A DNA stretch of 64,000 bases from Salinimicrobium profundisediminis (GTDB lineage: Bacteria > Bacteroidota > Bacteroidia > Flavobacteriales > Flavobacteriaceae): positions 1 to 64,000 of the forward strand of contig NZ_JAPJDA010000011.1 in NCBI RefSeq assembly GCF_026241755.1, given 5' to 3'. A program made the position numbers and the translations under genes. Each line of letters begins with the position of its first letter. Position 1 is the stretch's first letter. Positions 494-63,130 of this stretch are shown here, piece after piece. The notes under the pieces were generated by a model. The model did no database searches. It saw nothing but the letters and a program-made list of their open reading frames with translations, and was not told where the DNA came from.

Positions 494-513
494 CTAAAAA
501 TGGCATTTTTGAG
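494..513. repeat. Short AAAATGNCATTTTT palindrome, intergenic copy
   Basis: The sequence CTAAAAATGGCATTTTTGAG is an exact match to the core palindrome that recurs across the window, for example at 15304, 22241, 26763, 36632, 52460, 52799 and 60208. Here it sits in gene-free DNA just before palindrome cluster B. A degenerate counterpart stands at the equivalent place before cluster A, near 187-199. Confidence 0.7.
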
Positions 514-534
514 AGGTGGCGTTTCGTAAGGTGC

Positions 535-646
535 GACCCCTTCGGGGTCGGGATCATCACGGCATCCAGGTTAAAAACATATGACCCCGTTGGGGTCGTG
601 GGGTTGACAGCATAAGTTGTTATAAGCAGGAGATCCCTTCAGGGTC
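535..646. repeat. GACCCC/GGGGTC palindrome cluster B
   Basis: Palindromes lie at 535-549, 583-597 and 632-646, offset by exactly 328 bp from cluster A, with closely similar intervening sequence. More decayed relatives follow at about 690-708, 729-742 and 795-809; the last reads GACCCCGAAGCGGTC. Several distances are close to 48 bp or its double, so the region looks like a partly decayed array of a unit of about 48 bp. A 70-codon open frame runs through it, but it is made of repeat sequence and I do not call it a gene. Confidence 0.8.
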
Positions 647-948
647 TGGTTCGTGAAGTGTTCCTGTTATTGAAAGAAGGAAACACATTGGGGTCTTGAA
701 GTCATGACCTGCTACGTTACAAACATAAGACCCGATAAGGTCTAACCATCCGGATCCAAAGGATCCGGTATTTGTATTATTCTTCGGCAGGGATGACCCC
801 GAAGCGGTCAAATGTTTATAGCTGATAAACGAAATATCCATCGAATTACATTAATAGGAATCAAAAACATACAATCAAATCCGATTATTTTAATGTCAAT
901 TGAAAACGAAAAACCCCAATCCCATAACATTATTATGAATCGAAGATG

Positions 949-1060
949 TTTGTCCGCGTTAGGGAGAGCAGCGGAAATCCTTTTTGCAAGGCACGAGCAA
1001 AAAGATTGAAGCGGATAGCCCGACCCGCATGAGCGGTAGCGAAGGCGGGGAACGCCCAAA
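949..1060. ncRNA. Structured intergenic stem-loop element downstream of the porin gene
   Basis: Nested complementary segments are visible. An outer arm TCCGCGTT (about 951-958) can pair with GAAGCGGA (about 1009-1016) with one bulge. An inner arm AATCCTTTTTGC (about 976-987) can pair with GCAAAAAGATT (about 998-1008) with one bulged C. A GC-rich tail with GCCCGACC and GAACGCCC follows. From memory, similar blocks recur between genes in many Flavobacteriaceae, but I cannot confirm that here. It lies directly after the porin stop codon, so it could be a 3' untranslated structure, a terminator-like element or a mobile repeat. Transcription is not shown by sequence alone. Confidence 0.45.
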
Positions 1061-1063
1061 TAA

Positions 1064-12622: not shown

Positions 12623-13315
12623 TAATTCAGCCTCAAAAAGGGCAGAAAAATGCTTCTTTATTTTTTGCTTCACCTCCTCTACAGGAACTTCCTTTACGCC
12701 CAGCTCTACATTGAGTGAAGTTACTGCTTTTCCTTTAATTCCACAGGGAATGATGTTATCAAAATATCCCAGGTCGGTATTCACATTAAAGGCAAAACCG
12801 TGCATGGTAACCCAGCGGCTGGCACGCACCCCCATTGCACAAATTTTTCGCGCAAAAGGCGTATCACTATCCAGCCACACTCCTGTTTCCCCTTTACTAC
12901 GGCCTGCTATGATCCCGTACTCTTCAAGAGTGAGAATAATAGTTTCCTCAAGAAGCCTTAAGTATTTATGGATGTCTGAAAAGAAATTTTCAAGATCGAG
13001 TATAGGATACCCCACAATTTGTCCGGGTCCGTGATAAGTAATATCACCACCCCTGTTGATCTTGTAAAAGGTGGCATTTTTTAGCCCCAGTTGTTCCTCA
13101 TTGATGAGGAGATGCGACATATCTCCGCTCTTTCCGAGGGTATAGACATGGGGATGCTCTACAAAAAGCAGGTGATTTTTGGTGGCCTTTGAAGTTCCTT
13201 CTCTGCGGTTGGCAATCTTTTGATCGAGTATTCCCTGAAACAATTTCTCCTGGTACTCCCAAATCTCCTTATAATCCCGCTGCCCTAACTCCACAAATTC
13301 AATGTTCCTGTTCAA
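12605..13315 (-). CDS. lipB: Octanoyl-[acyl-carrier-protein]:protein octanoyltransferase
   Basis: This encodes 236 residues. LipB moves octanoyl groups from acyl carrier protein to lipoyl domains of 2-oxoacid dehydrogenases, the first step of lipoate synthesis. Signatures are FVEHPHVYTLGKSGDMSHLL (about 50-69), GGDITYHGPGQIVGYPILDL (about 88-107), KICAMGVRASRWVTMHGFAF and the catalytic cysteine in IIPCGIKGKAVTSL. The apparent start is TTG at 13315; no in-frame ATG gives the conserved N-terminus. The C-terminal VPPTP comes from a palindromic repeat. The YqaE-like gene ends 11 bp upstream, so the two are probably co-transcribed. LipA is not in the window. Confidence 0.94.
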   Translation of the reverse strand: MNRNIEFVELGQRDYKEIWEYQEKLFQGILDQKIANRREGTSKATKNHLLFVEHPHVYTLGKSGDMSHLLINEEQLGLKNATFYKINRGGDITYHGPGQIVGYPILDLENFFSDIHKYLRLLEETIILTLEEYGIIAGRSKGETGVWLDSDTPFARKICAMGVRASRWVTMHGFAFNVNTDLGYFDNIIPCGIKGKAVTSLNVELGVKEVPVEEVKQKIKKHFSALFEAELVPPTP

Positions 13316-13608: not shown

Positions 13609-15306
13609 ATGCATTTATCTGAACAGGAACTCATTCGCCGGGAGAAACTCGATTCCCTGCGAAAACTGAATATTGACCCTTATCCCGCGGCACTTTATCC
13701 CGTAGATCATACTACTTCGGAAATAAAGTCTGAATTTGAAGAAAATAAAAAGGTCGTCATCGCCGGGAGACTTATGTCCCGAAGAATACAGGGAAAGGCT
13801 TCTTTTGCTGAAATTCAGGATTCCACCGGAAGAATTCAGGTGTATTTCAACCGTGACGAGATTTGCAAGGGAGATGATAAAAGCAAATACAACGACGTCT
13901 ATAAAAAACTTCTTGATATAGGAGATTTTATCGGGATTGAAGGTAAGCTCTTCAACACGCAGGTGGGTGAGAAAACAGTAATGGTTGAGAATTTCACACT
14001 TCTTAGCAAATCATTAAAACCGCTTCCACTTCCAAAGACCGATAAAGAAGGTAAAACCTTCGACGAATTTAACGATCCCGAGTTGCGTTACCGCCAGCGT
14101 TATGCCGATTTGGTGGTGAACCCAAAAGTGAAAGAGATCTTTGTAAAAAGAACAAAGCTATTCACCGCAATGAGGAACTTCTTTAACGACAAAGGTTATT
14201 TTGAAGTTGAAACCCCCATTTTACAATCCATTCCGGGAGGAGCTGCTGCGCGGCCTTTCATCACGCATCACAATGCGCTCGACATCCCTCTTTACCTGCG
14301 GATTGCCAACGAGCTTTACCTTAAAAGGCTTATTGTAGGTGGTTTTGACGGAGTTTATGAGTTTTCGAAAAACTTCAGAAATGAAGGAATGGATCGCACG
14401 CACAACCCCGAATTCACGGCGATGGAGATCTATGTAGCTTATAAGGACTACAACTGGATGATGGAATTTACCGAAAATCTCCTGGAACACTGCGCTGTTG
14501 CCGTAAACGGAACTACAGAAGCCACTTTTGGAAAACATCAGGTAGATTTTAAAGCGCCTTATGCCAGAGTGACAATGACCGATGCCATCAAACAATTCAC
14601 CGGATTTGACATTACAGGCAAGTCTGAAAAAGAACTTTTTGAGGCCGCAAAAGGCATGGGCATCGAAGTTGATGACACTATGGGTAAAGGAAAACTTATT
14701 GACGAGATCTTCGGTGAGAAATGTGAAGGCAACTTCATACAGCCCACATTCATCACAGATTATCCAAAAGAAATGAGTCCGCTTTGTAAGGAGCACCGTG
14801 AAAATCCGGAGCTTACAGAGAGGTTTGAGCTTATGGTCTGCGGAAAAGAGATTGCCAATGCTTATTCTGAGTTAAATGATCCTATAGACCAAAGAAACCG
14901 TTTTGAAGAGCAGCTACAATTATCTGAAAAAGGCGATGATGAGGCTATGTTTATAGACAATGATTTCTTACGAGCACTGGAATACGGAATGCCCCCAACA
15001 TCGGGCCTTGGTATTGGAATGGATCGTTTGATCATGTTCCTTACCAACAAACAATCTATACAGGAAGTATTGTTCTTCCCACAGATGAAGCCCGAAAAGA
15101 AAGCAGCCACACCAAAACCTGAGGATTTCATAAAAATCGGAGTTCCGCAGGAATGGGTAGATACAGTGATGCACGAATTTGGTACTGTTGCCAAACTTCA
15201 GGAAAACAAACCTACCCAGGTTCATCAAAAGCTCAACGGACTAAGAAAGAAAAATAAATTACCCATTGCTGCACTGCAGCTGGAAGAGGTAGAAAAGTGG
15301 TTCTAA
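13609..15306 (+). CDS. lysS: Lysyl-tRNA synthetase (class II)
   Basis: This encodes 565 residues. LysRS charges tRNA-Lys with lysine. It has the OB-fold anticodon-binding domain (about 55-150, VVIAGRLMSRRIQGKASFAE), motif 1 (FEVETPILQSIPGGAAARPF), motif 2 (FRNEGMDRTHNPEFTAMEIY) and motif 3 (GLGIGMDRLIMFLTN, about 478-492). Conserved core sequence ends near FFPQMKPE. About 60 further residues form a charged C-terminal tail (VPQEWVDTVMHEFG ... LEEVEKWF) that bacterial LysRS of about 500 residues lack. The start at 13609 is chosen over an in-frame upstream ATG that would precede the promoter-to-gene spacing. A terminator follows at 15329-15355. Confidence 0.97.
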   Translation: MHLSEQELIRREKLDSLRKLNIDPYPAALYPVDHTTSEIKSEFEENKKVVIAGRLMSRRIQGKASFAEIQDSTGRIQVYFNRDEICKGDDKSKYNDVYKKLLDIGDFIGIEGKLFNTQVGEKTVMVENFTLLSKSLKPLPLPKTDKEGKTFDEFNDPELRYRQRYADLVVNPKVKEIFVKRTKLFTAMRNFFNDKGYFEVETPILQSIPGGAAARPFITHHNALDIPLYLRIANELYLKRLIVGGFDGVYEFSKNFRNEGMDRTHNPEFTAMEIYVAYKDYNWMMEFTENLLEHCAVAVNGTTEATFGKHQVDFKAPYARVTMTDAIKQFTGFDITGKSEKELFEAAKGMGIEVDDTMGKGKLIDEIFGEKCEGNFIQPTFITDYPKEMSPLCKEHRENPELTERFELMVCGKEIANAYSELNDPIDQRNRFEEQLQLSEKGDDEAMFIDNDFLRALEYGMPPTSGLGIGMDRLIMFLTNKQSIQEVLFFPQMKPEKKAATPKPEDFIKIGVPQEWVDTVMHEFGTVAKLQENKPTQVHQKLNGLRKKNKLPIAALQLEEVEKWF

Positions 15307-15323
15307 AATGCCATTTTTGACAG
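15304..15323. repeat. Short AAAATGNCATTTTT palindrome at the lysS stop codon
   Basis: TAAAATGCCATTTTTGACAG is an exact core match. Its first three bases are the lysS stop codon TAA, so the palindrome starts exactly at the end of the gene, just before the terminator hairpin. Confidence 0.75.
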
Positions 15324-15355: not shown

Positions 15356-16358
15356 AGTTTATGGCCGGGCACCCACAGTGATATCGGGTTCTTGGTGCAC
15401 CAAAATTATATCCAAGGGTAATTTGATGAAAACCACTGTTACTAAGCACCACTTCATTAAACTGCCGGGAAAACGTGTAACCCACCAAAAATTTCCTGTA
15501 TTCCACACCGGCAAAAGGAGTGAGATATCTCAGGTTTTCTGTATCACCTTCCATTTTATCCAGCCCCTGCCGGTAAGACAATCCGGCCCATATTTGCCCG
15601 AACTCAAAATTCCGGTAGGCCTTAAGGTTAACATCTGCAAGTTTTTCCGAAGTATCTTCCACAAGTTGCAGCATGGCCGAAGGCTCCAGGTACCAGTCAT
15701 AAGCCGGTGAAATAATGTAACCGGCAGTTAAAAAATACCGTCTTTGATTAGTAGCGATGTTATGACTATTAAACAATTCCCTCGTAACTGGTAAAAGATT
15801 TTTTGCAGTGGCATGTATATAAAGATCTTTATTGAAGTACGACATTCCCACATCCATATTCGCGTAACTTACCGAAGCCTTCTCCTGCCCCAGCAGCGGA
15901 TCGGGTTGGGTAAAGCCGCTTTGGTCAAGCCGATGCTGAATAACCCCTGCACTAATTCCAAAACTCAGCCTATGCAATTGAAGGTCTCCTGCAGGTAACC
16001 TCAAATGGTAGGCGAATGCCCCATACGCCCCAGATTTAGAGAAATTTCCATTCCTGTCGTTAAATAGAATGGCACCTATCCCCTCTTTGTTGCCCAATCT
16101 GCCATTAATGGTAAGCGTCTGCAATCCCGGTGCATCATCTATATCAAACCACTGCTGCCGGGCCGTTAACCGCAGTTGATTGTTAACTGCCGCCCCTGCA
16201 AGAGAGGGGTGCAGCAGGAAAAGATTATCTGTAAGATAGTCTGAATATGTCGGAATGATCTCCTGCCCTCTACTCTCCCCAATATTGAAAAAAGTACAGA
16301 GAATAAGGATCCAAAAATGGGATTTTAAGAGGCTGTTATTTTGCTTCTGTTCAACCAT
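15354..16358 (-). CDS. PorP/SprF family type IX secretion membrane protein
   Basis: This encodes 334 residues. After a hydrophobic signal region comes the family signature (PTYSDYLTDNLFLLHPSLAGA; typical members read YM-N--F-NPA-AG), then barrel strands ending ITLGYNFG. PorP/SprF proteins are outer-membrane barrels attached to the T9SS and help secrete or anchor particular cargo. The gene lies 1 bp after a gene for a T9SS type B sorted protein, the usual pairing (as for SprF and SprB). It is therefore probably the dedicated partner of that cargo rather than the core PorP. Confidence 0.9.
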   Translation of the reverse strand: MVEQKQNNSLLKSHFWILILCTFFNIGESRGQEIIPTYSDYLTDNLFLLHPSLAGAAVNNQLRLTARQQWFDIDDAPGLQTLTINGRLGNKEGIGAILFNDRNGNFSKSGAYGAFAYHLRLPAGDLQLHRLSFGISAGVIQHRLDQSGFTQPDPLLGQEKASVSYANMDVGMSYFNKDLYIHATAKNLLPVTRELFNSHNIATNQRRYFLTAGYIISPAYDWYLEPSAMLQLVEDTSEKLADVNLKAYRNFEFGQIWAGLSYRQGLDKMEGDTENLRYLTPFAGVEYRKFLVGYTFSRQFNEVVLSNSGFHQITLGYNFGAPRTRYHCGCPAIN

Positions 16359-16359
16359 G

Positions 16360-18219
16360 TTAACGCTTTAATGAAAAGTGGCCTTTTTGAGGCTCAAAAC
16401 CATCTATAAATATTTGATACCAGTAATCTTCTGAAGGCAGTTCCTTTCCATTGTAAGTGCCATTCCAGGAAAATCCGGCGCCACTTCCGGCAGCCAGTAA
16501 CTTCCCGTACCTGTCAAAAATCCTGATTTCAGAATTGCTGAAATATTCAACTCCTTTAAGTTCAAAGTTGTCATTAAAGCCATCACTGTTAGGGGTGATG
16601 AATTGGGGAATGACAATATGCGGAAATTCTTCGGAAACAGTTTTACAACCTTCTAGATCGCGTATATAAGCAGTATATATTCCGCCGGAAATATTCTGAA
16701 AAACATTTGACTGCTGAAAGTGAATCCCATCCAGAGAAAATTCGAATTCCCCTGAATTTGCTGCTTCTATGATCACCCTGTTTGCTTCCGAAGTAATTTT
16801 GGCAATTTCGGCAACCGCTACAGCTGCTACTTCAAATGTTCTCAAAGCACTGCAGCCGTTGGAATTTGTCACTATTACTGAATAGTTTCCGGGATTAGTC
16901 ACAGAGATCGTCCTGCCCGAAGCTCCGGTGCTCCAGTTGTAGCTGAAATTTCCAGGCCCGGCATCAAGCTCGACCGTATTGCCGGCGCACAATTGCAACT
17001 CCTCATCCATTGTTTGAGGTACAGTAAAAATTTTCAAAGTAACCGGAGTGCGGGGCCCGGGTTCACAATTAAAACCCGATTTCACAGCTTCGGCATAATA
17101 AGTTCCGGCAGCTGTAGGCACAAAAGAATTTCCTGTTCCAACCTCAACGCCTCCTGTAACTTTATCAAACCAGGTTACAGATTCATCTGGCTCCACATTT
17201 ACCTTAAGTGCAGGAAATGGGTCTCCCTCACATATATTTTCATCTCCGCTACTTACCGGCGCCAAAGGAGTTTCCACAAAGTACACAGCAAAAGATTCGG
17301 AAACCGAGCTACAGAGATTATCGTCAAGATTTACCGAATTTTCGGCTACTTTAACCCTGTAATACCGGGTAGAGTTAATAGCCGGAGAAGAGTACACTGT
17401 GCCTGTTGCCCCCAAAATATCCTGCCAGTTATTGGCATCTGTACTTTCCTGCCATTGAAAAGCATGACTTTTATACACCGTATGGTCTGGGGTAGCGGTT
17501 AATGCCACACTCACGGGAGCATCGGGTTCACAAACTTCAAGAGAACTTCCTGCCGTTGTACCAGATGTGATTTCTGTGAGGTCTCCACAAGACCTGAAAA
17601 TAATATCGTCAATAGCGAGATCGTTTCCGCAGCCACCAATCCCATTGTTGAACATTTTAAGGATCACCAGGTCCTGTCCCGGCTGAGACTGGAAGGTCAA
17701 AGCAAACTGTTCCCAGTAGGGGGTAGATGAAGAATGGATATCTCCCGTATCACCCTCGGCAAGTAACTGAGTGTCGGTTTTATCCCAAATTTGAAACCTC
17801 ACATTTATTGGAATGCCTCCATTTGCACAACCAGTACGAATAGGACTTAGAATATTCATAAGGTAAGCCGAAAACTCATAAGTGGTGGCTTCACACAATC
17901 CCGAGATTTCTCTTTTGAAGAACAATCCGGCATTTTTATCGTCGGCATTGACTATTAATGCGTTTCCATTAGATAAAGTGGTGTTGGGCAGAGAAGAATG
18001 CCAGTCTTGAATTCCCTGGCCAATTGTACTTGAAATAGTATAATAACCGTCCTGAGGATCTCCCGAAACACGCGGATAACTTGTAGTCCCGGCTGGTAAA
18101 GTACCAGACGAAAAATCTTCATGGAAAATAGCGTCTCCCTTACTGCCGGGACAAAATCCCAGCTGGGAAAAGACATTTCCAGATAAAAGGAAGAAAATAA
18201 GAAAGCAGGAAACCCTCAT
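16360..18219 (-). CDS. T9SS type B (gliding-motility C-terminal domain) secreted protein
   Basis: This encodes 619 residues with a signal peptide ending near NVFSQ. The N-terminal half (about 30-210) is jelly-roll-like, with [10 protein letters not shown] after the repeat of acidic turns. Two or three Ig-like/PKD-like modules follow (about 230-480). The C-terminal 90 residues carry the type B sorting signature: [17 protein letters not shown], then [30 protein letters not shown] and HFSLKR. Such proteins are exported by the T9SS and attached to the cell surface. The PorP/SprF-like gene follows 1 bp after the stop. It may be an adhesin, but its ligand is unknown. Confidence 0.9.
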
Positions 18220-18437: not shown

Positions 18438-20930
18438 ATGAACAACCGACTCTTGTTCCGGCTGGTTATTGTTTTTTTCTCTTTTTCAATAACGAGTTGT
18501 GCCGTCTTTCAACCTGAAAAAGATAAAAAGTCAGCAACAGCAGCCAAATCTTCTGAAAAAGACAAAAACGGGATCAAACCTTATGACAAGGTGATCACCA
18601 AAAAAGCAAAATCTGATACCGGCTTATTTACTGTACACCAGGTAGATGATGATTACTACTACGAAATCCCCGATAGCCTCTTTAACCGTGAAATGCTTAT
18701 GGTTACCAGGATTGCCCAGACTGCTTCGGGTATTGGTTTTGGTGGCGGCAAACAAAACGAGCAGGTGCTGCGTTGGGAAAAGAAAAATAAGAACGTTCTT
18801 CTTCGCGTAGTTTCTCACGACGTTTTTGCTGCCGATTCGCTTCCGGTGCACGAAGCTGTGGTGAACTCTAACTTTGAGCCCATTCTTTTTTCTTTTGACA
18901 TTGAAGCTTTCCACAAGGATTCGGTGAACAATGCAACAGTGATCAAGGTAACCGACCTTTTCAAAAATGACGTGCAGGCGCTTGGTTTTCCTGAAAGGAA
19001 CCGAAAAGAATACAAGATCAGCCGTTTGGATGACAGCAGATCGTACATAGACACCATCCGGAGTTATCCTGAAAACATTGAAGTACGTCACGTGAAAACT
19101 TATAATGCTGGCGAACCACCTTCAAATTCAAGTACAGGATCTATTTCAGTAAAAATGAGCAACTCCATGATCCTCCTACCAAAGGTGCCTATGGAAAGAA
19201 GATACTATGACGAGCGCGTTGGCTGGTTCACCACCGGGCAAACCGATTACGGCCTTGATGCTCAAAAAAGTGAAACCGTACGCTACCTTGACCGCTGGAG
19301 ACTTGAGGTGAAGGAAGAAGATATGGAAAAATTCAAGGGTGGGGAACTGGTTGAACCTAAAGAACAGATCGTTTATTACGTAGACCGTGCGACTCCAAAG
19401 AAATGGATCCCTTACATCAAACAGGGAATTGAAGACTGGCAGGTGGCTTTTGAAGCTGCAGGTTTCAAAAATGCCATTATTGCAAAAGATCCTCCATCTA
19501 AAGAGGAAGATCCCGACTGGAGCCCTGAAGATGTTCGCTATTCTGTAGTGCGTTATTTAGCTTCTCCAATACCAAACGCAAACGGGCCGCACGTAAGTGA
19601 CCCGCGTTCGGGAGAGATTTTGGAATCGGACATAAACTGGTACCACAACGTAATGACCCTGTTGAGAAACTGGTTCTTTGTACAGACTGCAGCCATCAAT
19701 GAAGATGCCCGTGGTGTGGAATTTAAAGATGAGATCATGGGTCGTTTGATAAGGTTCGTATCTTCTCACGAAGTAGGCCACACACTTGGTTTACCTCATA
19801 ACATGGGAAGCAGTGCAGCCTATGCTGTAGAATCTTTGAGAGATGCTGAATTCACACAAAAATATGGAACTGCTCCTTCAATAATGGATTATGCACGTTT
19901 CAACTATATCGCACAGCCCGAAGATGGTGATGTGGCGCTAATGCCAAACATTGGGCCTTATGACAAGTATTCGGTGATGTGGGGCTACAAGCCAATTCCG
20001 GGGAAAACAGGAAAAGAGGAAAAAGAAGTCCTCGACTCCTGGATCCTTGAAAAAGCAGGAGATCCTGTTTATAGATTTGGTGCCCAGCAAAGCGGGGTGA
20101 TCGATCCTACTTCCCAGACCGAAGATCTTGGTGATGACTCTGTGCTTGCCAGCCAGTACGGAATCAAAAACCTGAAAAGGATAATTCCAAACCTCATCGA
20201 ATGGACTGCCGAAAAAGGTAAAGACTACGATGATCTTGAAACTATGTATGAGCAGGTACTTAGTCAGTACAACCGTTACATGGGGCACGTTGCTGCCAAC
20301 GTGGGTGGTGTTATTAAAGAAACAAAGACTTACGACCAGGAAGGTGCAGTATACTTTCATGTGACTCCCGAAAAGCAGAAAAATGCAATGAATTTCCTTC
20401 AGGATGAATTGTTTTCTACTCCCGAATGGCTTCTTGAGCAGGAGATCTTCAACAGGATCGAATTTGACGGAAGTGTGGAAAGGATCAGAAATACCCAAGA
20501 GCGCACTTTGAATAACCTGCTTGACTTCGGAAGAATGGCAAGATTGATCGAGAATCGTGAAATGAACGGCAATAGTGCTTACGGACTTCTCGATATGATG
20601 CAGGACCTAAGAACCGGAATCTGGAGTGAACTTAGAAGAGGCCAGGACATTGACACCTACCGTAGAAATCTTCAGCGTGCATACATCGACAGAATGGAAT
20701 ATCTAATGAACGAAGAACAGGAAGCTATCCCTGCACGTTACCGTTCCTGGATAACCCGCTCAAACATTGATGTGGCACAAAGTGATATTCGCCCGGTAGT
20801 GAGAGGCGAGCTTAAAAAGCTGCAGCGTGATCTTCGCAACAGCATTGGTCGCAGCAGAGACACATTGACCCGCTACCATTTGAAAGATGCTTTAGAAAGA
20901 GTAAATCTTATTCTCGATCCTAACAGCTAA
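18438..20930 (+). CDS. Zinc-dependent metalloprotease lipoprotein (DUF5117/DUF5118 type)
   Basis: This encodes 830 residues with a lipoprotein signal (lipobox ITSC, Cys near 21). An N-terminal region (about 45-300) matches the pattern of large Bacteroidota proteins with DUF5118 and DUF5117. The catalytic motif SSHEVGHTLGLPHNMGSS (about 437-454) is an HExxHxxGxxH metzincin-type zinc site. A downstream Met-turn-like IMDYARFNYI supports this. The protein probably acts outside the cytoplasm. The C-terminal part is helical and charged. It is divergent from the T9SS cargo gene and ends in a strong terminator (20953-20981). The substrate is unknown. Confidence 0.88.
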   Translation: MNNRLLFRLVIVFFSFSITSCAVFQPEKDKKSATAAKSSEKDKNGIKPYDKVITKKAKSDTGLFTVHQVDDDYYYEIPDSLFNREMLMVTRIAQTASGIGFGGGKQNEQVLRWEKKNKNVLLRVVSHDVFAADSLPVHEAVVNSNFEPILFSFDIEAFHKDSVNNATVIKVTDLFKNDVQALGFPERNRKEYKISRLDDSRSYIDTIRSYPENIEVRHVKTYNAGEPPSNSSTGSISVKMSNSMILLPKVPMERRYYDERVGWFTTGQTDYGLDAQKSETVRYLDRWRLEVKEEDMEKFKGGELVEPKEQIVYYVDRATPKKWIPYIKQGIEDWQVAFEAAGFKNAIIAKDPPSKEEDPDWSPEDVRYSVVRYLASPIPNANGPHVSDPRSGEILESDINWYHNVMTLLRNWFFVQTAAINEDARGVEFKDEIMGRLIRFVSSHEVGHTLGLPHNMGSSAAYAVESLRDAEFTQKYGTAPSIMDYARFNYIAQPEDGDVALMPNIGPYDKYSVMWGYKPIPGKTGKEEKEVLDSWILEKAGDPVYRFGAQQSGVIDPTSQTEDLGDDSVLASQYGIKNLKRIIPNLIEWTAEKGKDYDDLETMYEQVLSQYNRYMGHVAANVGGVIKETKTYDQEGAVYFHVTPEKQKNAMNFLQDELFSTPEWLLEQEIFNRIEFDGSVERIRNTQERTLNNLLDFGRMARLIENREMNGNSAYGLLDMMQDLRTGIWSELRRGQDIDTYRRNLQRAYIDRMEYLMNEEQEAIPARYRSWITRSNIDVAQSDIRPVVRGELKKLQRDLRNSIGRSRDTLTRYHLKDALERVNLILDPNS

Positions 20931-20981: not shown

Positions 20982-22202
20982 TACCACCCAAATTCTTACG
21001 ATCCAGCCGCCTATTAACCACGCATAAGCAATAAAGGCAAGATACTTCATAATGTTTTCCATCACCTGGCTCTTTGGTGCCATTTCTTTCATGTGCTTTA
21101 CATCGTTCCTTTTAAAAAAGCCAATGTAAAGAAGAATTCCGGAGATAATGAGAAAAGCGAGGTTGAGAAAGAAAGTATAGTCTATCTGGAAATGTTCAGA
21201 TTCAAGGATCTTCACGTTGTTTGGATCGGGCAGCAGGCTTAACAGGTCAAAAGAATAGTGCAGGGCCAGGGAGGTTCCAATAAGTGCAGTAAACAATAAA
21301 AAGAGTATGAAAAGTGACATTTTCCAGCCGTAATATTTCGCATTGATCCGCAACACCGGAAATACAACCAGGTCACTGAATATAAACGCCATTACTCCGG
21401 CGAAGCTGACGCCTTTTCCGAAGAGCAGCGCTGCCAGCGGAATATTCCCCATAGAACCAATAAAGGTTAAAAATGCAGCAACGGGCCCCACAATAATATG
21501 CTCTAAAATGGTAAAAAAGCTATGGCTTTCAACCTCAGGCCCGCTGTTGATAAACAGGGTTCTGAAAAAAGAATCGGGTACAAAAGCAGCTACAATTCCG
21601 GCGATGGTGAAACCAATGGTCACATCCTTCCACACCATCTTCCATTCCATCGCGTACTGCTTTGCCACCTTGGCCCAGGCAGTTTCAGATTTCATTTTCT
21701 CCTTCCAGTCTTTGTCAGATCCTTTATCGTCATCCTCTTCTCCTTTTAGCCGCTCGCGTGCATTTTTGATCAGTTTCTTCGGATTGATAAGCCTTACGAT
21801 AAGCCAGCTGATGAGAATAAGCAGGATTCCTCCCACATATTCCCCTACTACGAACTGCCAGCCCAGGAAAATAGCAATAATGATTCCCAGCTCGATCACA
21901 AGGTTTGTCGAAGCCAAAAGGAAAGCAATAGACGGAATAAAACCTGCTCCTTTCTTAAAAAGGCTTTTGGTAGAAGCGAGAGCTGCAAAACTACAGGAGC
22001 TGCTTATAAACCCAAAAAATGTGCCCAGGAGAACACCTTTTGAGTTTTTACCACCCATGGTCTCCTGCATTTTCTTTTCGGTTACGAATATTTGGATCCC
22101 GCTGCTAATTAAGTAGCCGAGAATAAAGGCCCATAAGGCCATCCAAAAAAAACTTGTACTTGTGTAAGCTGCTTCTGCCCAGCTCTTCCAGAAATCCTGC
22201 AT
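20979..22202 (-). CDS. Permease of the ArsP/DUF318 family
   Basis: This encodes 407 residues with about nine to ten membrane segments. Signatures are GFISSSCSFAALA (about 61-73, with the conserved SSCS), FIPSIAFLLASTNLVIELG and a second-half repeat (IGSMGNIPLAALLFGKGVSFAGVMAFIFSDL). A charged cytoplasmic linker lies near 150-180. ArsP_1/DUF318 permeases include organoarsenical exporters, but most are uncharacterised. It is the last gene of the minus-strand metal operon, 53 bp after the P-type ATPase, so export of a metal or metal complex is likely. The exact substrate is not shown. Confidence 0.82.
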   Translation of the reverse strand: MQDFWKSWAEAAYTSTSFFWMALWAFILGYLISSGIQIFVTEKKMQETMGGKNSKGVLLGTFFGFISSSCSFAALASTKSLFKKGAGFIPSIAFLLASTNLVIELGIIIAIFLGWQFVVGEYVGGILLILISWLIVRLINPKKLIKNARERLKGEEDDDKGSDKDWKEKMKSETAWAKVAKQYAMEWKMVWKDVTIGFTIAGIVAAFVPDSFFRTLFINSGPEVESHSFFTILEHIIVGPVAAFLTFIGSMGNIPLAALLFGKGVSFAGVMAFIFSDLVVFPVLRINAKYYGWKMSLFILFLLFTALIGTSLALHYSFDLLSLLPDPNNVKILESEHFQIDYTFFLNLAFLIISGILLYIGFFKRNDVKHMKEMAPKSQVMENIMKYLAFIAYAWLIGGWIVRIWVV

Positions 22203-22240
22203 AAATTTTTCTTCACAAATTAGTAATTATAGAAGACTCT

Positions 22241-22258
22241 TCAAAAATGCCATTTTTA
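22241..22258. repeat. Short AAAATGNCATTTTT palindrome between ATPase and permease genes
   Basis: TCAAAAATGCCATTTTTA is an exact core match in the 53-bp gap just upstream of the permease gene. The core ends within a few bases of the ATPase stop codon (22256-22258). Confidence 0.7.
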
Positions 22259-47296: not shown

Positions 47297-47324
47297 AAAA
47301 AAGGGCTTAAAAAAGCCCTTTTTG
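47297..47324 (-). terminator. Terminator of the processing protease gene
   Basis: AAAAAGGGCTT and AAGCCCTTTTT form a stem with a short A-rich loop. On the minus strand, after the prc stop (47345), it is followed by a T-run. It is also T-rich in the other direction, so it may work for both. Confidence 0.8.
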
Positions 47325-52384: not shown

Positions 52385-54400
52385 TTGAACACTGCAATCA
52401 TTCGGCTTACCATTTTGCTGCTGCTGGGAACATGCATCGGCTTTTATTTGGAGCTCTCGCTAAAAATGGCATTTTTGGCACTGCTGCCGGGAATCCTATT
52501 ATTTCTCCTGACTTTTATTAGAGCCCGAAAATTGCTTTTCCCAGATCTTTTCTTCGGAAGCAGTGTCGCCCTCCTCTTTTTTCTCTTCGGAATTTTTTCT
52601 GCAAGCCTTCACCTTCCCAAAAACCAGCCACAGCACTACATTAACAAGATTTCTTCGGAAGAAATACCACTTCTGAAGCTAAATATCCTGGAAACACTAA
52701 AACCCGATCGCTACAGCGATAAATATTTTGCTGAAGTGAACGCGGTCAACGGAAAATCTGCGCACGGAAAGCTTCTGCTATTGATTCCAAAAGACAGTCT
52801 TAAAATGCCATTTTTGGAAGGTGAGCATCTACTTATTTCTTCCACTTTAGCCCCCATCCCCGCGCCCCTCAATCCACACCAGTTCGATTATGCTGCTTTT
52901 ATGAACAGAAAAGGAATTTGGCGACAGGCCAATCTCCGCCATGGAGTTTCAAAAACCCTGCATAAAAAAGAATCCGGAATAAAAGTAGCAGCGGCAAACT
53001 TAAGGCGTGAAATCACTTTAGCACTTAAAAAGAATAATTTTAAGCAGGAGGAACTTTCTTTGGTACAGGCACTGCTGCTGGGTCAAAAACAGGATATTTC
53101 AGCGCAGACCTACAACAATTTTGCAGCTGCAGGAGCCATACACATCCTCGCGGTATCGGGCCTGCATGTGGGAATCATTTTATTGATGTTACACTGGCTT
53201 TTTAAACCTCTTACAAGTCTCAAAAATGGCAAATTCTTAAAGACTTTCCTGGTCATTTTATGCCTCTGGGGCTTTGCTGTTCTGGCAGGACTTTCGCCCT
53301 CGGTGGTGCGGGCAGTGACCATGTTCAGCTTTATTGCCGTGGGCCTGGAAATTAAACGACGTACCGGAACCCTCAATTCCATCTTCCTTTCGCTGCTCCT
53401 ACTGCTACTCATAAAGCCGGGATGGATCTTTGAAGTCGGTTTTCAACTGAGCTATCTGGCGGTGCTTTCTATTGTGCTTTTTCAGCCTTTGTTTAACAGG
53501 CTATACGCTCCTACAAACCGCATTGTAAAATATCTTTGGGATTTACTCAGCGTTACGCTTGCTGCGCAAATAGGAGTATTGCCCCTAAGCCTCTATTATT
53601 TCCACCAGTTTCCCGGCCTCTTCTTTCTCACAAACCTGCTCATCCTTCCGTTCCTGGGTCTCATTCTTATTGTGGGCGTGCTGGTCATCTTTTTGGCTGT
53701 TGTAGATGTACTGCCCTCTTTTATTGCTGAAACCTACGGAATCATCATCAAAATCCTGATTAAAACCGTGGACTGGATTGCCGGGCACGAACAATTCCTC
53801 TTTAAAGACATTGCCTTCAGTTTACCGGAAGTATGGAGCTGGTATTTCTTTCTTTTCGCTGCATTTCTGCTATGGAAAAACTTCAGCTATAAAAGCCTCA
53901 TCCCTGTACTTATTTCAGTAATAATCCTGCAATTGGTTTATATTTCTTCCGAAGTAAATAGGGAGAATCGGCTTATTGTTTTTCACAAAAGCCGAAGCAG
54001 CCTGATAGCACAACAAAATAGTGAACGATTAAAGCTTTACCACAACCTCACAACACCTGCGAAAGACCTGAAGCTAATTCAAAATTTCATGGTGGGAGAA
54101 GATCTTCAACAAATCAGGGAAGTGCCACTTCAAAATATATACCTTCAAAAAAGGCATTTTTTAGTGGTGACTGACAGTAGCGGAATCTTTCCGAAGCAAA
54201 CGCCTTTGAACACTCACCTGCTACTTTCGGGCACTCCCAGGATCAACCTGGAGCGGGTATTAATGAATTTTAAACCTGAAGTGATCATTGCCGATGGCAG
54301 TAATTATCCTGCGGTTATAAAAAGGTGGGAGAAAACTGCAAGCGCGAACCACATTACATTTTTCTACACCGGTGAAGACGGGGCTTATATCCTGGAATAA
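52385..54400 (+). CDS. comEC: ComEC/Rec2 family DNA-uptake channel
   Basis: This encodes 671 residues from a TTG start at 52385. The N-terminus has two helices, then a soluble OB-like domain (about 60-160). The competence membrane domain follows (about 200-500), with the signature AAGAIHILAVSGLHVGIILL near 246-265 and LLLIKPGWIFEVGFQLSYLA near 338-357. The last 130 residues are a small domain, not the metallo-beta-lactamase domain of longer ComEC proteins. ComEC forms the channel for single-stranded DNA during transformation. The gene holds two exact copies (52460, 52799) and two near copies of the short palindrome. Confidence 0.92.
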   Translation: MNTAIIRLTILLLLGTCIGFYLELSLKMAFLALLPGILLFLLTFIRARKLLFPDLFFGSSVALLFFLFGIFSASLHLPKNQPQHYINKISSEEIPLLKLNILETLKPDRYSDKYFAEVNAVNGKSAHGKLLLLIPKDSLKMPFLEGEHLLISSTLAPIPAPLNPHQFDYAAFMNRKGIWRQANLRHGVSKTLHKKESGIKVAAANLRREITLALKKNNFKQEELSLVQALLLGQKQDISAQTYNNFAAAGAIHILAVSGLHVGIILLMLHWLFKPLTSLKNGKFLKTFLVILCLWGFAVLAGLSPSVVRAVTMFSFIAVGLEIKRRTGTLNSIFLSLLLLLLIKPGWIFEVGFQLSYLAVLSIVLFQPLFNRLYAPTNRIVKYLWDLLSVTLAAQIGVLPLSLYYFHQFPGLFFLTNLLILPFLGLILIVGVLVIFLAVVDVLPSFIAETYGIIIKILIKTVDWIAGHEQFLFKDIAFSLPEVWSWYFFLFAAFLLWKNFSYKSLIPVLISVIILQLVYISSEVNRENRLIVFHKSRSSLIAQQNSERLKLYHNLTTPAKDLKLIQNFMVGEDLQQIREVPLQNIYLQKRHFLVVTDSSGIFPKQTPLNTHLLLSGTPRINLERVLMNFKPEVIIADGSNYPAVIKRWEKTASANHITFFYTGEDGAYILE

Positions 54401-55052: not shown

Positions 55053-55084
55053 AAAAAAACTACGCCCTCGGGAATGAGGGCGTA
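55053..55084 (-). terminator. Terminator of the peptidase-transporter operon
   Basis: TACGCCCTC (55061-55069) and GAGGGCGTA (55076-55084) form a 9-bp stem with a 6-nt loop. On the minus strand it is followed by GTTTTTTTG. The last stem bases begin a near copy of the short palindrome (55082-55099). Confidence 0.85.
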
Positions 55085-55107
55085 AAAATAGCATTTTAGG
55101 GAGGAAA

Positions 55108-58490: not shown

Positions 58491-60691
58491 TATAGGGATG
58501 ATTTGATATTAGAATTAACTTTTAGATTTTCTTCGATAAAGTTCGTCATGAGCGTATAAAGGTGCATACGGGTGTTACCACCGTAAATACCGTGATTCTT
58601 ATCGGGATATATTGCCCAGTCAAACTGTTTGTTCGCCTGCACGAGGGCTTCTATCATTCTCATGGTATTTTGAACATGAACATTGTCATCTCCTGTACCA
58701 TGAATAAGCAGGTAATCTCCTTTTAGCTTCTCCACATGATTGATGGGCGAATTCTCATCATATCCCGAAGGGTTCTCCTGCGGGGTAGTCATATACCTTT
58801 CGGTATAGATGCTGTCGTAAAATCTCCAGCTGGTAACCGGTGCCACTGCTATAGCCATTTTATAGACGTCATTACCTTTAAGAATGGCATTAGATGACAT
58901 AAAACCTCCATAGCTCCAGCCCCAAATACCCATGTTGTCTTCGTCTATGTAGTCTCTTGATCCAAGGATTCGTGCGGCTTCAATAATATCTTCCACTTCA
59001 TATTTTCCAAGTTCCTTTTGGGTCACTTTTTTAAAGGCAGCACCTTGAAACCCGGTACCGCGAGGATCAATTCCCACTACAATATATCCTTTGCTGGCAA
59101 GCATTTGATACCAGTAGTCATTCGTGCTGTGAAAGCGGTTGCCTACTTCCTGAGAACCAGGTCCCGAATACTGCGAGACAAAAAGCGGATACTCTTTTGC
59201 AGGATCAAAACCAGCAGGCTTGATCATCCACATATTGAGATCGGCGCCATTTACCGCAAGAGTTGAGAATTCCTTAGGCACAATCTCATACTCTGCCATT
59301 TGCTCCAAAAGCTCCTCGTTATTGACAATCTCCCTTACAAGTTTCCCATTCTTTGCGAGGTGTAGGGTAAACTCATAAGGCGTAGTCGCGCTGTTGTAGC
59401 TGTTGATGAAGTAAGTAAAATCGGCACTAAAGTCGGCACTGTTTTGCCCCACCTTATCTGTAAGTTGTTTTTTATTCTTTCCGTTGGTCCTTACTGAAAA
59501 CACATCACGATTGATGCTTCCGTTCTCGGTACTTTGGTAGAAAATAGTTTTGGTTTTAGGATCAAGACCGTAGTAATTGGTCACCTCCCAGTTACCTCTG
59601 GTCACCTGATTTTTCAGTTTACCGTTCTTGTCGTAGAGATAAATGTGGTTCCAGCCATCCTTTTCACTGGTCCAGATGAAGCTGTTATCTTCCAAAAATG
59701 TCAAATTATCGGTCACATCTACGTAAGCTTCATCGGTTTCTGTGAGCACTACTCCAGCTTTATTTGCTTCAGCATCAACAAATATTAGATCGAGCACATT
59801 TTGATGACGGTTAAGAACCTGTGCACTTAACACATTGGCATCATTGGTCCATTTTATCCGCGGAATATAAAAATCTTCGTAATCACCCAAATTCACGTCT
59901 GAAACTTCTTCCTGCTGAAGATCATAAATATGAAGGCTTATTTCTGAATTTTTTTCTCCTGCTTTAGGGTATTTAAAGACTGTTTGGGTTTGGTAAAGAT
60001 CCTGCCCGTAAACATCCATAGAGAATTCGGGGACTTCAGTTTCGTCGAACTTCAAAAAAGCGATTTTATCACCAGATTTATTCCACTGAAAAGCGCGCAC
60101 AAAAGAAAATTCTTCTTCATACACCCAATCGGCCACCCCGTTGATGATCTTGTTCATCTCCCCGTCGGTAGTCACCTGCGCCACTTTTCCGGAGGAAAGA
60201 TCTTTCACGAAAATGTCATTTTTGAATACATAAGCAACCTTCTCCCCATTTGGCGACAGGGTAGGTTCCTTGATTTTTTCTTCTGAAATCTTTTTCAGTT
60301 CATTCGTTTGCAGGTCGTACACGTAAAAGATCCCGCGGGTAGAGTGCCTGTAGATAGATTCAATCTCTGTGCCCAGCACCAGTTTAGATTCATTTTCACT
60401 GAATTCATATTCCGAAAAATATTGAATTTCCTCAAGATCTTTACTGTTAAGAATAGTTCTTGTCTTTTCACCGGTCTTGTAAGAATAAGCATCTATGGCT
60501 GATGTGCCTGCACTACGATCAAAATTAAGCACCACATACTCTTCTCCATTATTGAGAGATTGCAGGGCTTCCATTCTTTCCTGCCGGAATGTTCCTCCCC
60601 AAATGTCTTCAAGTGTAATTGCTTTTTTCTGCGCAGTGAGAACCGTTGTAGCCAAAAGAAAAAGGGCCAAAAACCCGTAGGTCAACTTCAT
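58490..60691 (-). CDS. S9 family peptidase, dipeptidyl peptidase IV-like
   Basis: This encodes 733 residues with a signal peptide (about 1-20, ending LTAQ). The N-terminal region (about 40-480) is an eight-bladed propeller of the DPP IV type (AYVFKNDIFVKDL, VADWVYEEEFSFVRAF). The C-terminal alpha/beta-hydrolase carries Ser in MGIWGWSYGGFMSSN (about 600), an Asp in HGTGDDNVH (about 680) and the His in DKNHGIYGGN (about 710). Such periplasmic enzymes remove N-terminal dipeptides, often after proline. The next two genes import small peptides, which fits a dipeptide-harvesting pathway. Confidence 0.94.
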   Translation of the reverse strand: MKLTYGFLALFLLATTVLTAQKKAITLEDIWGGTFRQERMEALQSLNNGEEYVVLNFDRSAGTSAIDAYSYKTGEKTRTILNSKDLEEIQYFSEYEFSENESKLVLGTEIESIYRHSTRGIFYVYDLQTNELKKISEEKIKEPTLSPNGEKVAYVFKNDIFVKDLSSGKVAQVTTDGEMNKIINGVADWVYEEEFSFVRAFQWNKSGDKIAFLKFDETEVPEFSMDVYGQDLYQTQTVFKYPKAGEKNSEISLHIYDLQQEEVSDVNLGDYEDFYIPRIKWTNDANVLSAQVLNRHQNVLDLIFVDAEANKAGVVLTETDEAYVDVTDNLTFLEDNSFIWTSEKDGWNHIYLYDKNGKLKNQVTRGNWEVTNYYGLDPKTKTIFYQSTENGSINRDVFSVRTNGKNKKQLTDKVGQNSADFSADFTYFINSYNSATTPYEFTLHLAKNGKLVREIVNNEELLEQMAEYEIVPKEFSTLAVNGADLNMWMIKPAGFDPAKEYPLFVSQYSGPGSQEVGNRFHSTNDYWYQMLASKGYIVVGIDPRGTGFQGAAFKKVTQKELGKYEVEDIIEAARILGSRDYIDEDNMGIWGWSYGGFMSSNAILKGNDVYKMAIAVAPVTSWRFYDSIYTERYMTTPQENPSGYDENSPINHVEKLKGDYLLIHGTGDDNVHVQNTMRMIEALVQANKQFDWAIYPDKNHGIYGGNTRMHLYTLMTNFIEENLKVNSNIKSSL

Positions 60692-60872
60692 TTTTTGCGT
60701 TTAAAAAATTTGCTTGCCAAGTTTAGTAAAAATTCGGCTAAAAAACAGGCTTTCTGCTGTTAAATCATAAGAAGATGTTAATGAACCGAATGAGTGTAGA
60801 TGTGCAAATCTGTAAGTTTTGCTCCCTCTGCTCCAGAAATTCTAACAGCTGCCATGTTTCTTACAGTAATTG

Positions 60873-60880
60873 TATCTTTG
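60873..60880 (+). promoter_or_regulatory. -7 box (TATCTTTG) of the HMG-CoA reductase gene
   Basis: TATCTTTG lies 19 nt before the ATG at 60900 and matches TAnnTTTG. There is no TTG at the expected distance. It argues for the ATG at 60900, because the in-frame ATG at 60870 would precede the box. Confidence 0.5.
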
Positions 60881-60899
60881 TGCTCTCAAATTTCACATA

Positions 60900-62213
60900 A
60901 TGATCACACCTATTTCGGGCTTTTCCAAACTGTCAAAAGAGGAGAAAATTGACTGGCTTAGCCAAACATACCTGGCTCACAATACAAACGCCAGGAAGAT
61001 CTTAACCCAGTACTGGAACCCCGACTCCGGCCTGCAACAGCTCCACGAAGAGTTTACAGAGAACACCCTGTCAAATTACTACCTGCCTTTTGGGCTTGCC
61101 CCCAATTTTCTTATCAATGACCGGCTTTATGCGGTACCCATGGCTATAGAAGAAAGCTCGGTAATTGCTGCGGCGAGCAAAGCAGCCAAATTCTGGAGTG
61201 ACAGGGGCGGTTTTAAAGCTGAAGTTTTGGGAACAGAAAAGATAGGGCAGGTACATTTCATGTACTCTGGAGACGGGAAAAAGCTGGAGCATTTTTTCAA
61301 TAGCATCAAATCAACATTACTTGAAGCAGTAGCTCCCCTCACCAAAAACATGGAGAAGCGCGGCGGCGGAGTAATGAATATGGAGCTGCGTGACAAAACA
61401 AAGCTACTCGACAATTACTACCAACTGCACTGCACTTTTGAGACTAAAGACTCTATGGGTGCAAATTTCATCAACTCCTGCCTGGAGCGTTTTGCTGAAA
61501 CTTTTCGTGAAGCAGCTAAGAGCCATGAGGCTTTTAACGCTACCGAAAAGGAGATAGAGATCGTGATGAGCATTCTTTCTAATTACGTACCCGGTTGTAT
61601 CGTAAAAGCTGAAGTTTCCTGCCCGGTAACAGCGTTGGCCGATCAGGGCATGAGCGGGGAAGATTTCGCTGCAAAATTTGTTAGGGCCCTCAAGATCGCT
61701 GAAGTTGAGCCCTACAGGGCGGTGACCCACAACAAAGGCATCATGAACGGAATTGACGCGGTAGTACTGGCCACAGGAAACGATTTTAGAGCGGTAGAAG
61801 CAGGTATTCATGCTTATGCCTCAAAAGATGGGAAATACAGCAGCCTTACCCACGCCGAAGTACACGATGGACAATTCAGGTTTTGGATGGAGATTCCGTT
61901 GGCCCTGGGAACGGTAGGTGGTCTCACGGCATTACATCCGCTTTCAAAGATCGCTTTGGAAATTCTGCAAAAACCTTCAGCCGAAGAACTTATGAAAATA
62001 GTGGCAGTAGCCGGCCTGGCACAAAATTTTGCCGCCGTAAAGTCACTTATCACCACAGGAATTCAGCAGGGACATATGAAAATGCACCTTATGAATATCC
62101 TCAACCAATTCCAGGCAACAACACAGGAAAAAGAAGTGCTAACAAGCTATTTTAAGAACCACAATGTTTCGCACAGCGCAGTGGAGCAGCAACTTGAAAA
62201 ACTGAGAAGCTAA
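60900..62213 (+). CDS. mvaA: Hydroxymethylglutaryl-CoA reductase, class II
   Basis: This encodes 437 residues from the ATG at 60900. HMG-CoA reductase makes mevalonate, here for isoprenoid synthesis. The class II (bacterial, degradative-type) pattern is visible: FGLAPNFLINDRLYAVPMAIEESSVIAAAS (a run of conserved catalytic Glu region, about 66), MGANFINSC (about 190), HNKGIMNGIDAVVLATGNDFRAVEAG (about 270) and LALGTVGGLTALHPLSKIAL. The stop overlaps the next gene start as TAATG. Flavobacteriia use the mevalonate route, consistent with a following GHMP kinase. Confidence 0.93.
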   Translation: MITPISGFSKLSKEEKIDWLSQTYLAHNTNARKILTQYWNPDSGLQQLHEEFTENTLSNYYLPFGLAPNFLINDRLYAVPMAIEESSVIAAASKAAKFWSDRGGFKAEVLGTEKIGQVHFMYSGDGKKLEHFFNSIKSTLLEAVAPLTKNMEKRGGGVMNMELRDKTKLLDNYYQLHCTFETKDSMGANFINSCLERFAETFREAAKSHEAFNATEKEIEIVMSILSNYVPGCIVKAEVSCPVTALADQGMSGEDFAAKFVRALKIAEVEPYRAVTHNKGIMNGIDAVVLATGNDFRAVEAGIHAYASKDGKYSSLTHAEVHDGQFRFWMEIPLALGTVGGLTALHPLSKIALEILQKPSAEELMKIVAVAGLAQNFAAVKSLITTGIQQGHMKMHLMNILNQFQATTQEKEVLTSYFKNHNVSHSAVEQQLEKLRS

Positions 62214-63130
62214 TGGAGGTATTCCACAGTCACGGAAAATTACTGATAAGCGGGGAATATGTTATTCTTGATGGCGCCACCGGTTTTGCCTTACCCACAA
62301 AGTTTGGACAAAGCCTGGAAGTCACAAACATTGAAGAGCCTTTAATAAAGTGGAAAAGTTATGATGAGAAACAGGAAATATGGTTTAAAGACAACTTTGA
62401 AATTTCAGCTTTAACCTCTTCGGAAGCACCACGGAAGCATGAAAAAAATGAGGTGTCAAAAATGCTATTTTTGACACTCTTTTTTGCCAGGAAAATGGCT
62501 CCGCAGAAATTTTCTGAAGGCGGATTTGAAATCACCACAAAATCGGACTTCCCAAGAAACTGGGGCCTCGGAACATCATCGACCCTTGTTGCAAACCTTG
62601 CCAAATGGCTGAAAATTGACCCTTACGAGCTCCTGCAGCACACTTTTGGGGGCAGCGGCTATGATGTGGCAGTAGCCATGCACGAAACCGCGATCACCTT
62701 TGAAAAACATCCCTTTGAAAATAGCATTTTAAAGACCTCATTTGACCCTGCTTTTAAAGACCAGATCTTTTTTGTGCACCTAAATCAAAAACAGAACAGC
62801 CGCGAAGCCATACAGCACTACAGGCAGCAGGACAAAACAGCCTTAAACACGGGCATTGATAAAATTTCGGCACTCACCCATAGTTTAATTAGCAGTAAAG
62901 ATCTTTTGGAGTTTAAAATGCTCCTGGAAGTACATGAGAATATTATCTCACAGCTGGTGGGGCTGCAAAAGGTCAAATCCCGCCTGTTCCCAGATTACCC
63001 GGGGGCAATAAAAAGCCTTGGCGGCTGGGGCGGTGATTTTATACTGGTCACCGGCACAGCCGAGGATATGGAATACTTCAGAAGGAAAGGCTACAACACC
63101 ATCCTCTCCTATTCTGACATGATCTTATAA
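62213..63130 (+). CDS. GYDIA-family GHMP kinase, probably of the mevalonate pathway
   Basis: This encodes 305 residues. GHMP signatures are HGKLLISGEYVILDGATGFALP (about 5-26), the phosphate loop NWGLGTSSTLVANLA (about 115-129) and the family-naming motif GGSGYDVAVAMHET (about 145). The C-terminal GGWGGDFILVTG closes the fold. The translationally coupled HMG-CoA reductase suggests it phosphorylates mevalonate or phosphomevalonate, but the exact step is unproven. It contains the palindrome copy at 62453-62477, which encodes SKMLFLT. Confidence 0.88.
   Translation: MEVFHSHGKLLISGEYVILDGATGFALPTKFGQSLEVTNIEEPLIKWKSYDEKQEIWFKDNFEISALTSSEAPRKHEKNEVSKMLFLTLFFARKMAPQKFSEGGFEITTKSDFPRNWGLGTSSTLVANLAKWLKIDPYELLQHTFGGSGYDVAVAMHETAITFEKHPFENSILKTSFDPAFKDQIFFVHLNQKQNSREAIQHYRQQDKTALNTGIDKISALTHSLISSKDLLEFKMLLEVHENIISQLVGLQKVKSRLFPDYPGAIKSLGGWGGDFILVTGTAEDMEYFRRKGYNTILSYSDMIL
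62453..62477. repeat. Extended copy of the short palindrome in the GHMP kinase gene
   Basis: This is the longest inverted repeat of the family: arms GTGTCAAAAAT and ATTTTTGACAC face each other with only a few central bases. It departs from the core at one central position (CTATTTTT). It lies inside coding sequence. Confidence 0.75.

Follow-up and report, generated by a model that had tools for sequence, protein, structure and literature searches.

A conserved palindrome limited to the genus Salinimicrobium as a candidate DNA-uptake sequence

Why should one short palindrome recur in unrelated genes and between genes throughout 64 kb of a bacterial contig? The question is raised by the first 64,000 nucleotides of contig NZ_JAPJDA010000011.1 of Salinimicrobium profundisediminis (forward strand; this whole stretch is called the window hereafter), a member of the family Flavobacteriaceae. 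We write the core of the palindrome in its 15-base form as AAAAATGNCATTTTT, with 14 fixed positions and a free centre base, and we call the window genome (4.04 Mb, 101 contigs) G000 and the 11 other Salinimicrobium genomes that were compared G001 to G011. The palindrome is real, maintained and specific to this genus. As to its role, we lean, with moderate confidence, towards a palindromic DNA-uptake sequence, that is, a self-DNA tag for natural transformation in Salinimicrobium. Two proteobacterial families are well known for recognising self-DNA during transformation.

The excess over base composition that had been claimed for the window is confirmed, since AAAATGNCATTTTT is present at eight places against a mean of 0.05 and a maximum of 2 in 100 dinucleotide shuffles (these eight places give 12 match rows because four of them match both strands), and AAAAATGNCATTTTT with up to two mismatches has 26 matches where 1.84 are expected. 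All eight exact cores that the original prediction listed are present, 1–4 bases downstream of where it put them, and its 11 near copies were found within a few bases of their positions with 1–3 mismatches. Copies are counted by mismatches throughout, because an iterated weight matrix drifts to looser sites. In the whole of G000, where a count had been proposed as a check, there are 296 exact copies of AAAAATGNCATTTTT and a single copy of the reversed pattern; among all palindromes with two six-base arms around a free base in 451 kb of this genome, AAAATG is the top arm (69 copies; runner-up 13). A 1.27-Mb sample of G009 likewise has 84 exact copies and no reversed one.

From the counts in relatives, it is clear that the motif is genus-limited. 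G001 to G011 carry 0, 14, 4, 108, 104, 49, 108, 93, 246, 113 and 60 exact copies, respectively; the 48 genomes of other genera in the same search have 0–2, and in a phylum sample of 395 genomes all except the window genome have 0–3. When named genomes were scanned with TCAAAAATGNCATTTTTGA, 60 of the 80 loci among the matches listed were from Salinimicrobium, the other 20 being single loci elsewhere. No comparable palindrome was seen in 60 kb from each of two other genera, and a literature search found no title or abstract opening that describes the motif.

Alignment of the exact copies extends the motif symmetrically beyond its core, with C at −8 (0.71), a pyrimidine at both −9 and −10, T at −11 (0.55), G/C at −12 and −13, and a run of A from −16 to −20 that peaks at −17 (0.70). 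The motif is thus a double-stranded one of about 35 bp, in which the core is adjoined by a conserved TC/GA and flanked, about one helical turn away, by an outer A-run and T-run. Coding copies alone carry the same pattern (C 0.65 at −8, A 0.56 at −17), so this extended context is not solely the product of a terminator stem.

The sites are also conserved. Over 162 kb of alignment, G000 and G009 share 85.2% identity; at the 20 exact sites of G000, the 14 fixed positions are 0.954 identical in G009, the centre base 0.80 and the flanks 0.83–0.84, nine sites being still exact, nine having one change and two having two changes. Matches with up to two mismatches (61 sites) have an identity of 0.937, compared with 0.858 for 431 sites of 300 shuffled patterns chosen in the same way. 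Coding sites (29; 0.956 versus 0.831 in the flanks) and non-coding sites (8; 0.938 versus 0.804) behave alike. Hence the site conservation proposed as a check is there.

High copy number and palindromy, together with the copies inside attC-like cassette repeats described below, could also point to a small mobile element, such as a miniature inverted-repeat transposable element (MITE) or a repetitive extragenic palindromic (REP) sequence. However, all 20 exact sites and 36 of the 37 sites with at most one mismatch align to G009 without a gap, relatives have partial matches at the same positions, and a comparison of orthologous positions across as many as nine of the ten relatives examined shows that the motif is gained and lost by substitution. 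Because the sites change by substitution in place, the motif is not a mobile element; with no insertion seen in the ortholog alignments, this origin is largely refuted and the least credible of all those considered.

To place the copies relative to genes, 1.72 Mb of G000 and G009 with gene calls based on open reading frames (ORFs) were used, in which 286 of the 290 copies with at most one mismatch could be placed (four at stretch ends were dropped). The 148 coding copies occupy three reading frames (72, 54 and 22 sites) rather than the two described originally, and a peptide motif is rejected on this ground. Their number is not explained by codon choice either: 21 exact coding copies in 387 kb of G000 and 25 in 1.09 Mb of G009 compare with means of 1.7 and 1.45 in 20 synonymous-codon shuffles each, a 12–17-fold excess. 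The original prediction had named a count close to that of composition- and codon-matched shuffles as the outcome that would speak against it; since the coding copies exceed such shuffles so clearly, this is not the outcome observed, and its general proposal of a dispersed site under selection or spread is sustained by the codon shuffles, the conservation and the coding context as that of a dispersed motif maintained at the DNA level.

The remaining 138 copies (48%, versus 10% expected by length) are intergenic. Convergent gene pairs enclose 43 of them (31%, versus 18% of intergenic length), tandem pairs 84 and divergent pairs 11 (8%, versus 23%). In non-coding copies, the complementarity of the arms from ±10 to ±15 exceeds what column composition would give (z 3.1–5.0), and as a group many intergenic copies form terminator-like stems; the copies reported at a stop codon (lysS, 15304–15318) and in a terminator stem (36635–36649) were both borne out. 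The intergenic excess, the convergent bias and the complementary arms would suit a motif that is nothing but a conserved transcription-terminator stem. Yet 148 of the 286 placed copies are coding, with arms that are not complementary beyond composition, and these share the extended pattern and the conservation; moreover, the core alone stays unfolded as RNA, whereas copies with long complementary arms do fold. A terminator-only origin is therefore rejected for the coding copies, and as an account of the whole motif it is very improbable.

The distribution along the chromosome was followed in the 1.27-Mb sample, which was taken along the complete 3.51-Mb chromosome of G009 and divided into 5-kb windows, the origin being placed from GC skew. 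For copies with up to two mismatches in windows with a GC content of at least 0.41, there is no origin–terminus trend (Spearman 0.02, p 0.74) and no difference between replichores (1.75 versus 1.71 per window). The chromosome-organising site offered by the original prediction thus finds no origin–terminus domain in this sample. GC content does matter: copies with at most one mismatch are absent from all nine windows below 0.36 and reach 1.04 per window in the 52 windows at or above 0.45, whereas over the same range the reversed control drops from 0.67 to 0.15. The motif is thus scarce in AT-rich islands although it is AT-rich itself, and if low GC is taken as a proxy for recent acquisition, it would be scarce in recently acquired DNA.

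A symmetric motif with A-runs in helical phase, a conserved core and a free centre base is also what a genus-specific dimeric nucleoid-associated or regulatory protein might require, bending DNA at dispersed sites kept by selection. Against such a protein stand the lack of any origin–terminus trend or replichore difference and the gene context: promoter control fits poorly, because about half of the copies with at most one mismatch are coding and only 11 of the 138 intergenic ones lie between divergent genes. It also leaves the failed transformation genes of the motif-poor species, described next, unexplained. We consider it unlikely, though the strongest of the alternatives to uptake.

Flavobacterial transformation has been dissected in Riemerella anatipestifer, where, according to a published transposon screen, ComEC, DprA, ComF, RecA and a DUF5689 protein are required, together with the outer-membrane protein beside DUF5689 and with proteins of the helix-hairpin-helix (HHH) and DUF1343 types; among all these, four are described there as dissimilar to known transformation machinery (PMC8459023). 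For R. columbina, a second report states that transformation is reduced by an equal mass of competing own DNA and not by foreign DNA, a self-DNA preference presented without a proven motif; its candidate k-mers are A-rich words, different from the Salinimicrobium motif (PMC7965970). In a third report, transformation is lowered in two tonB mutants, in one of them possibly by way of iron (PMC8383284).

The 12 Salinimicrobium genomes were surveyed for homologues of four of these flavobacterial proteins, namely ComEC, DprA, the double-HHH protein and the DUF5689 lipoprotein (ComF, RecA and DUF1343 being left aside). ComEC matches in 10 of them and is stop-free in nine, the G009 gene carrying a single TAA close to the N-terminus; the product of the comEC-like gene in the window exceeds the cut-off for ComEC_N-term and falls below that for ComEC_Rec2, and three motif copies lie inside this gene. 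DprA matches in 11 (the G008 copy reaches a contig end, the G003 copy is split over frames), DUF5689 in 10, and the HHH protein (292–308 aa, resembling ComEA below family cut-offs) is open in 10. What is left of comEC in G003 amounts to about 0.9 kb, spread over several frames in syntenic position; the HHH gene of this genome is interrupted by four stops, and DUF5689 was not found. The search of G001, which is 74% complete, found none of the four. Because 24 of 25 other genera of the family have DUF5689, its absence from G001 and G003 looks like loss.

The strength of the motif can be set beside the state of these genes. Expressed as matches over reversed control at up to two mismatches, it is 7.9 in G000, 9.2 in G009, 6.0 in G004, 6.2 in G005, 7.9 in G006, 6.8 in G007, 8.4 in G008, 6.1 in G010, 6.7 in G011 and 4.9 in G002, the 10 genomes that have all four genes, and only 1.65 in G003 and 1.39 in G001, where these genes are disrupted or were not found. 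In all 12 genomes, motif strength thus matches gene state, the two motif-poor ones being sisters (support 97 in an unrooted tree of four proteins). Ratios of 0.87–1.46 (pooled 1.065) were obtained for eight genomes picked by hand out of the 25 others of the family; G001 is not above this pool (p 0.14), and G003 is (p 3e-6). A decayed remnant in G003 is only suggested, because the pool itself is uneven (p 0.004); no trace of the extended pattern is seen in its motif flanks. Among the options named originally (uptake sequence, chromosome-organising or protein-binding site, iterated palindrome), an uptake sequence is favoured because the motif and the transformation genes appear to have been lost together.

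How such a sequence might be read is suggested by the same genes, as candidates for a reader were considered among the transformation genes. The PF00437 type II/IV secretion ATPase is over its cut-off in only one of the 12 genomes, so a type IV pilus is rejected as the general machinery, and an apparatus without type IV pili would be at work. That single match (G000:C21:22380-23510, 3e-124), in G000 alone, presumably belongs to an acquired gene or a contaminant contig. At all 10 loci, the DUF5689 ORF directly follows a same-strand ORF of at least 447 codons, which extends beyond the locus and ends in YxRF-type residues; the fetched part of it has no Pfam or NCBIfam match. It probably encodes an outer-membrane barrel, a call that leans on the description in Riemerella and on the C-terminus, which we take to be a sign of barrels. 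The DUF5689 protein matches the M949_1556 lipoprotein family below cut-off, and its start is presumably that of a lipoprotein.

In the mechanism that we propose, some component of the flavobacterial transformation apparatus, at the cell surface or in the periplasm, would prefer motif-bearing DNA, the candidate reader being the DUF5689 lipoprotein, whose gene directly follows that of the probable barrel. From there, the DNA would travel by way of the HHH protein and ComEC to DprA. Over time, preferential uptake and subsequent recombination would enrich the motif by molecular drive; intergenic copies would serve as terminator stems as well, and once a lineage no longer transforms, its motif would decay. 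A more specific version is possible but doubtful: in place of a type IV pilus, the reader of the palindrome would be an outer-membrane system of two parts, DUF5689 surface lipoprotein and barrel, in a SusC/SusD-like arrangement. The specificity of this system would have shaped the DNA of one genus, in genes and between them, and would have marked its integron-like cassettes. To our knowledge, this would be the first palindromic uptake sequence and the first in Bacteroidota.

Several observations weigh against uptake. Since G001 and G003 are sisters, the link between genes and motif amounts to one or two events, and one of these two genomes is the incomplete G001; as the tree is unrooted, the motif may never have been strong in their clade. 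G002 has all four genes intact yet only 14 exact copies, eight of which are on two cassette contigs, and no clear shifted consensus was found in 165 kb of it (mismatches are spread and weak flanks remain). The 24 other genera with DUF5689 lack this motif, among them the two whose 60-kb stretches hold no comparable palindrome, and we know of no uptake sequence that the palindrome resembles. The stop in the G009 comEC, at about residue 23, may precede the true start and was not used for the interpretation.

A last point on this side comes from a second iterated palindrome, YTTCNGAAR, which occurs at 0.86–0.97/kb in G000 and G009 (permuted controls 0.17–0.23), exceeds codon shuffles (353 versus 116.5) and has a core identity of 0.933, compared with 0.869–0.871 for permuted patterns; one instance of it, TCTTCGGAA or its complement, has 19 copies in positions 1–60000 of the window. 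Its density is 0.82–0.97/kb in samples of G000, G009, G006/11, G010, G008, G002 and G003, and lower in G005/7/4 (0.63/kb), in 13 kb of G001 (0.39) and in two other genera (0.20–0.22). Since it persists at full density in G003 (0.905/kb), transformation need not be what sustains an iterated, conserved palindrome in these genomes. This keeps alive an account in which the motif, like the cyanobacterial HIP1 (GCGATCGC), was spread by methylation, repair or mutation bias without any link to uptake. On the other hand, HIP1 is far shorter than a 14-base core with 35 bp of context, and the apparent loss of the motif in the clade that lost its transformation genes would be unexplained; we rate this account slightly below the nucleoid-associated or regulatory protein.

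The two small G002 contigs (33% GC) carry small ORFs separated by repeats of about 110–130 bp, the ends of which pair in a long imperfect hairpin. The 13-base core lies inside such repeats in 12 of 14 cases there, and in four of four and five of five cases in stretches of contigs from S. nanhaiense and S. xinjiangense, respectively. In one repeat that was folded, the palindrome forms a second stem, with an energy that is not unusual (z −1.8, −1.1). These arrays resemble integron cassettes; they are called attC-like only, because the integron integrase TIGR02249 is over cut-off in none of the 12 genomes, and a literature search found nothing combining Salinimicrobium and integron. Near one end of both contigs is an identical ORF that we take to be an IS110-family transposase. 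Tag-bearing cassettes would fit the uptake interpretation, without proving it.

The copies in the window are collected in Table 1. Those at 25316 and 25607 have the same context and are 291 bases apart; the pair was probably carried by a duplication of metal-binding repeats in the gene of the Cu P-type ATPase. This protein (1210 aa, five chaperone-like stretches) belongs to a metal-efflux block at 20979–34525, with CusB-, CusA- and TolC-like proteins. The window further contains a Flavo-1 RNA (948–1029; 49.2 bits, gathering score 42) and two adjacent oligopeptide:H+ symporter genes (55108–58490).

Table 1. Motif copies and the comEC-like gene in the window.
Feature	Coordinates	Strand	Remarks
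Near copy, 2 mismatches	106..120	.	intergenic; 1 mismatch at same place in G009, G005, G006
Exact 15-base palindrome	496..510	.	intergenic
Near copy, 2 mismatches	13067..13081	.	coding
Copy, 1 mismatch	15304..15318	.	spans lysS stop codon; same in G009
Near copy, 2 mismatches	16313..16327	.	coding
Near copy, 2 mismatches	16374..16388	.	coding
Copy, 1 mismatch	19467..19481	.	coding
Near copy, 2 mismatches	21310..21324	.	coding
Exact palindrome	22243..22257	.	overlaps 3' end of Cu P-type ATPase gene; exact in G009
Near copy, 2 mismatches	25082..25096	.	coding
Copy, 1 mismatch	25316..25330	.	coding
Copy, 1 mismatch	25607..25621	.	coding; 23-base context identical to 25316 copy
Copy, 1 mismatch	26763..26777	.	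coding; core same in G009, G005, G007, G010, G011
Near copy, 2 mismatches	27617..27631	.	coding
Near copy, 2 mismatches	29987..30001	.	coding; exact in G010
Near copy, 2 mismatches	30636..30650	.	coding
Near copy, 2 mismatches	32571..32585	.	coding
Exact palindrome, centre of longer perfect palindrome	36635..36649	.	intergenic, terminator-like stem
Copy, 1 mismatch	40137..40151	.	in purH
Near copy, 2 mismatches	47309..47323	.	intergenic
comEC-like gene (Competence domain PF03772)	52385..54400	+	predicted inner-membrane DNA channel; PF03772 E 1e-58
Exact palindrome	52462..52476	.	within comEC
Copy, 1 mismatch	52801..52815	.	within comEC; exact in G006
Copy, 1 mismatch	54147..54161	.	within comEC
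Near copy, 2 mismatches	55084..55098	.	start of thioredoxin-like gene
Copy, 1 mismatch	60209..60223	.	coding; exact in G009, G007
Copy, 1 mismatch	62458..62472	.	coding

A 15-base core in a 35-bp context makes self-DNA preference directly testable, and the motif can serve as bait for a receptor and as a genomic sign of which lineages exchange DNA. Should uptake be excluded, it would still have to be explained why one genus has a conserved palindrome shaping hundreds of its sites, both coding and intergenic.

Among known systems, integron attC sites come close where the palindrome lies within the attC-like repeats of G002, S. nanhaiense and S. xinjiangense, but across the genus the majority of copies are plain chromosomal sites that lack repeats of this kind. 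With parS, matS, Noc and SlmA sites the motif shares the form of dispersed palindromes of about 13–16 bp, but it has many more copies and no chromosomal domain. Like HIP1, it is an iterated, conserved palindrome within genes; unlike HIP1, it has another sequence in another phylum, a much longer core of odd length with a free centre, and a lower copy number. The uptake signal sequences (USS) of Pasteurellaceae and DNA uptake sequences (DUS) of Neisseriaceae differ in that the present motif is palindromic, and therefore without orientation, is found in a Bacteroidota host whose genus has the PF00437 ATPase over cut-off in that one genome, and is less dense (about one copy with at most one mismatch per 6 kb in G009). 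Neisseria ComP, which reads DUS, is a type IV pilus component, and the single PF00437 match sets Salinimicrobium apart from that case, although a pilus-borne reader is not essential to the definition of a DUS. In its distribution, the motif nevertheless appears similar to DUS and USS, a likeness that we put forward without claiming membership of either class: it is a short high-copy word of one lineage, in coding and intergenic DNA alike, scarce in foreign-looking DNA, used in terminator stems and changing by point mutation, and, as in the Haemophilus USS, its AT-runs lie about a helical turn from the core.

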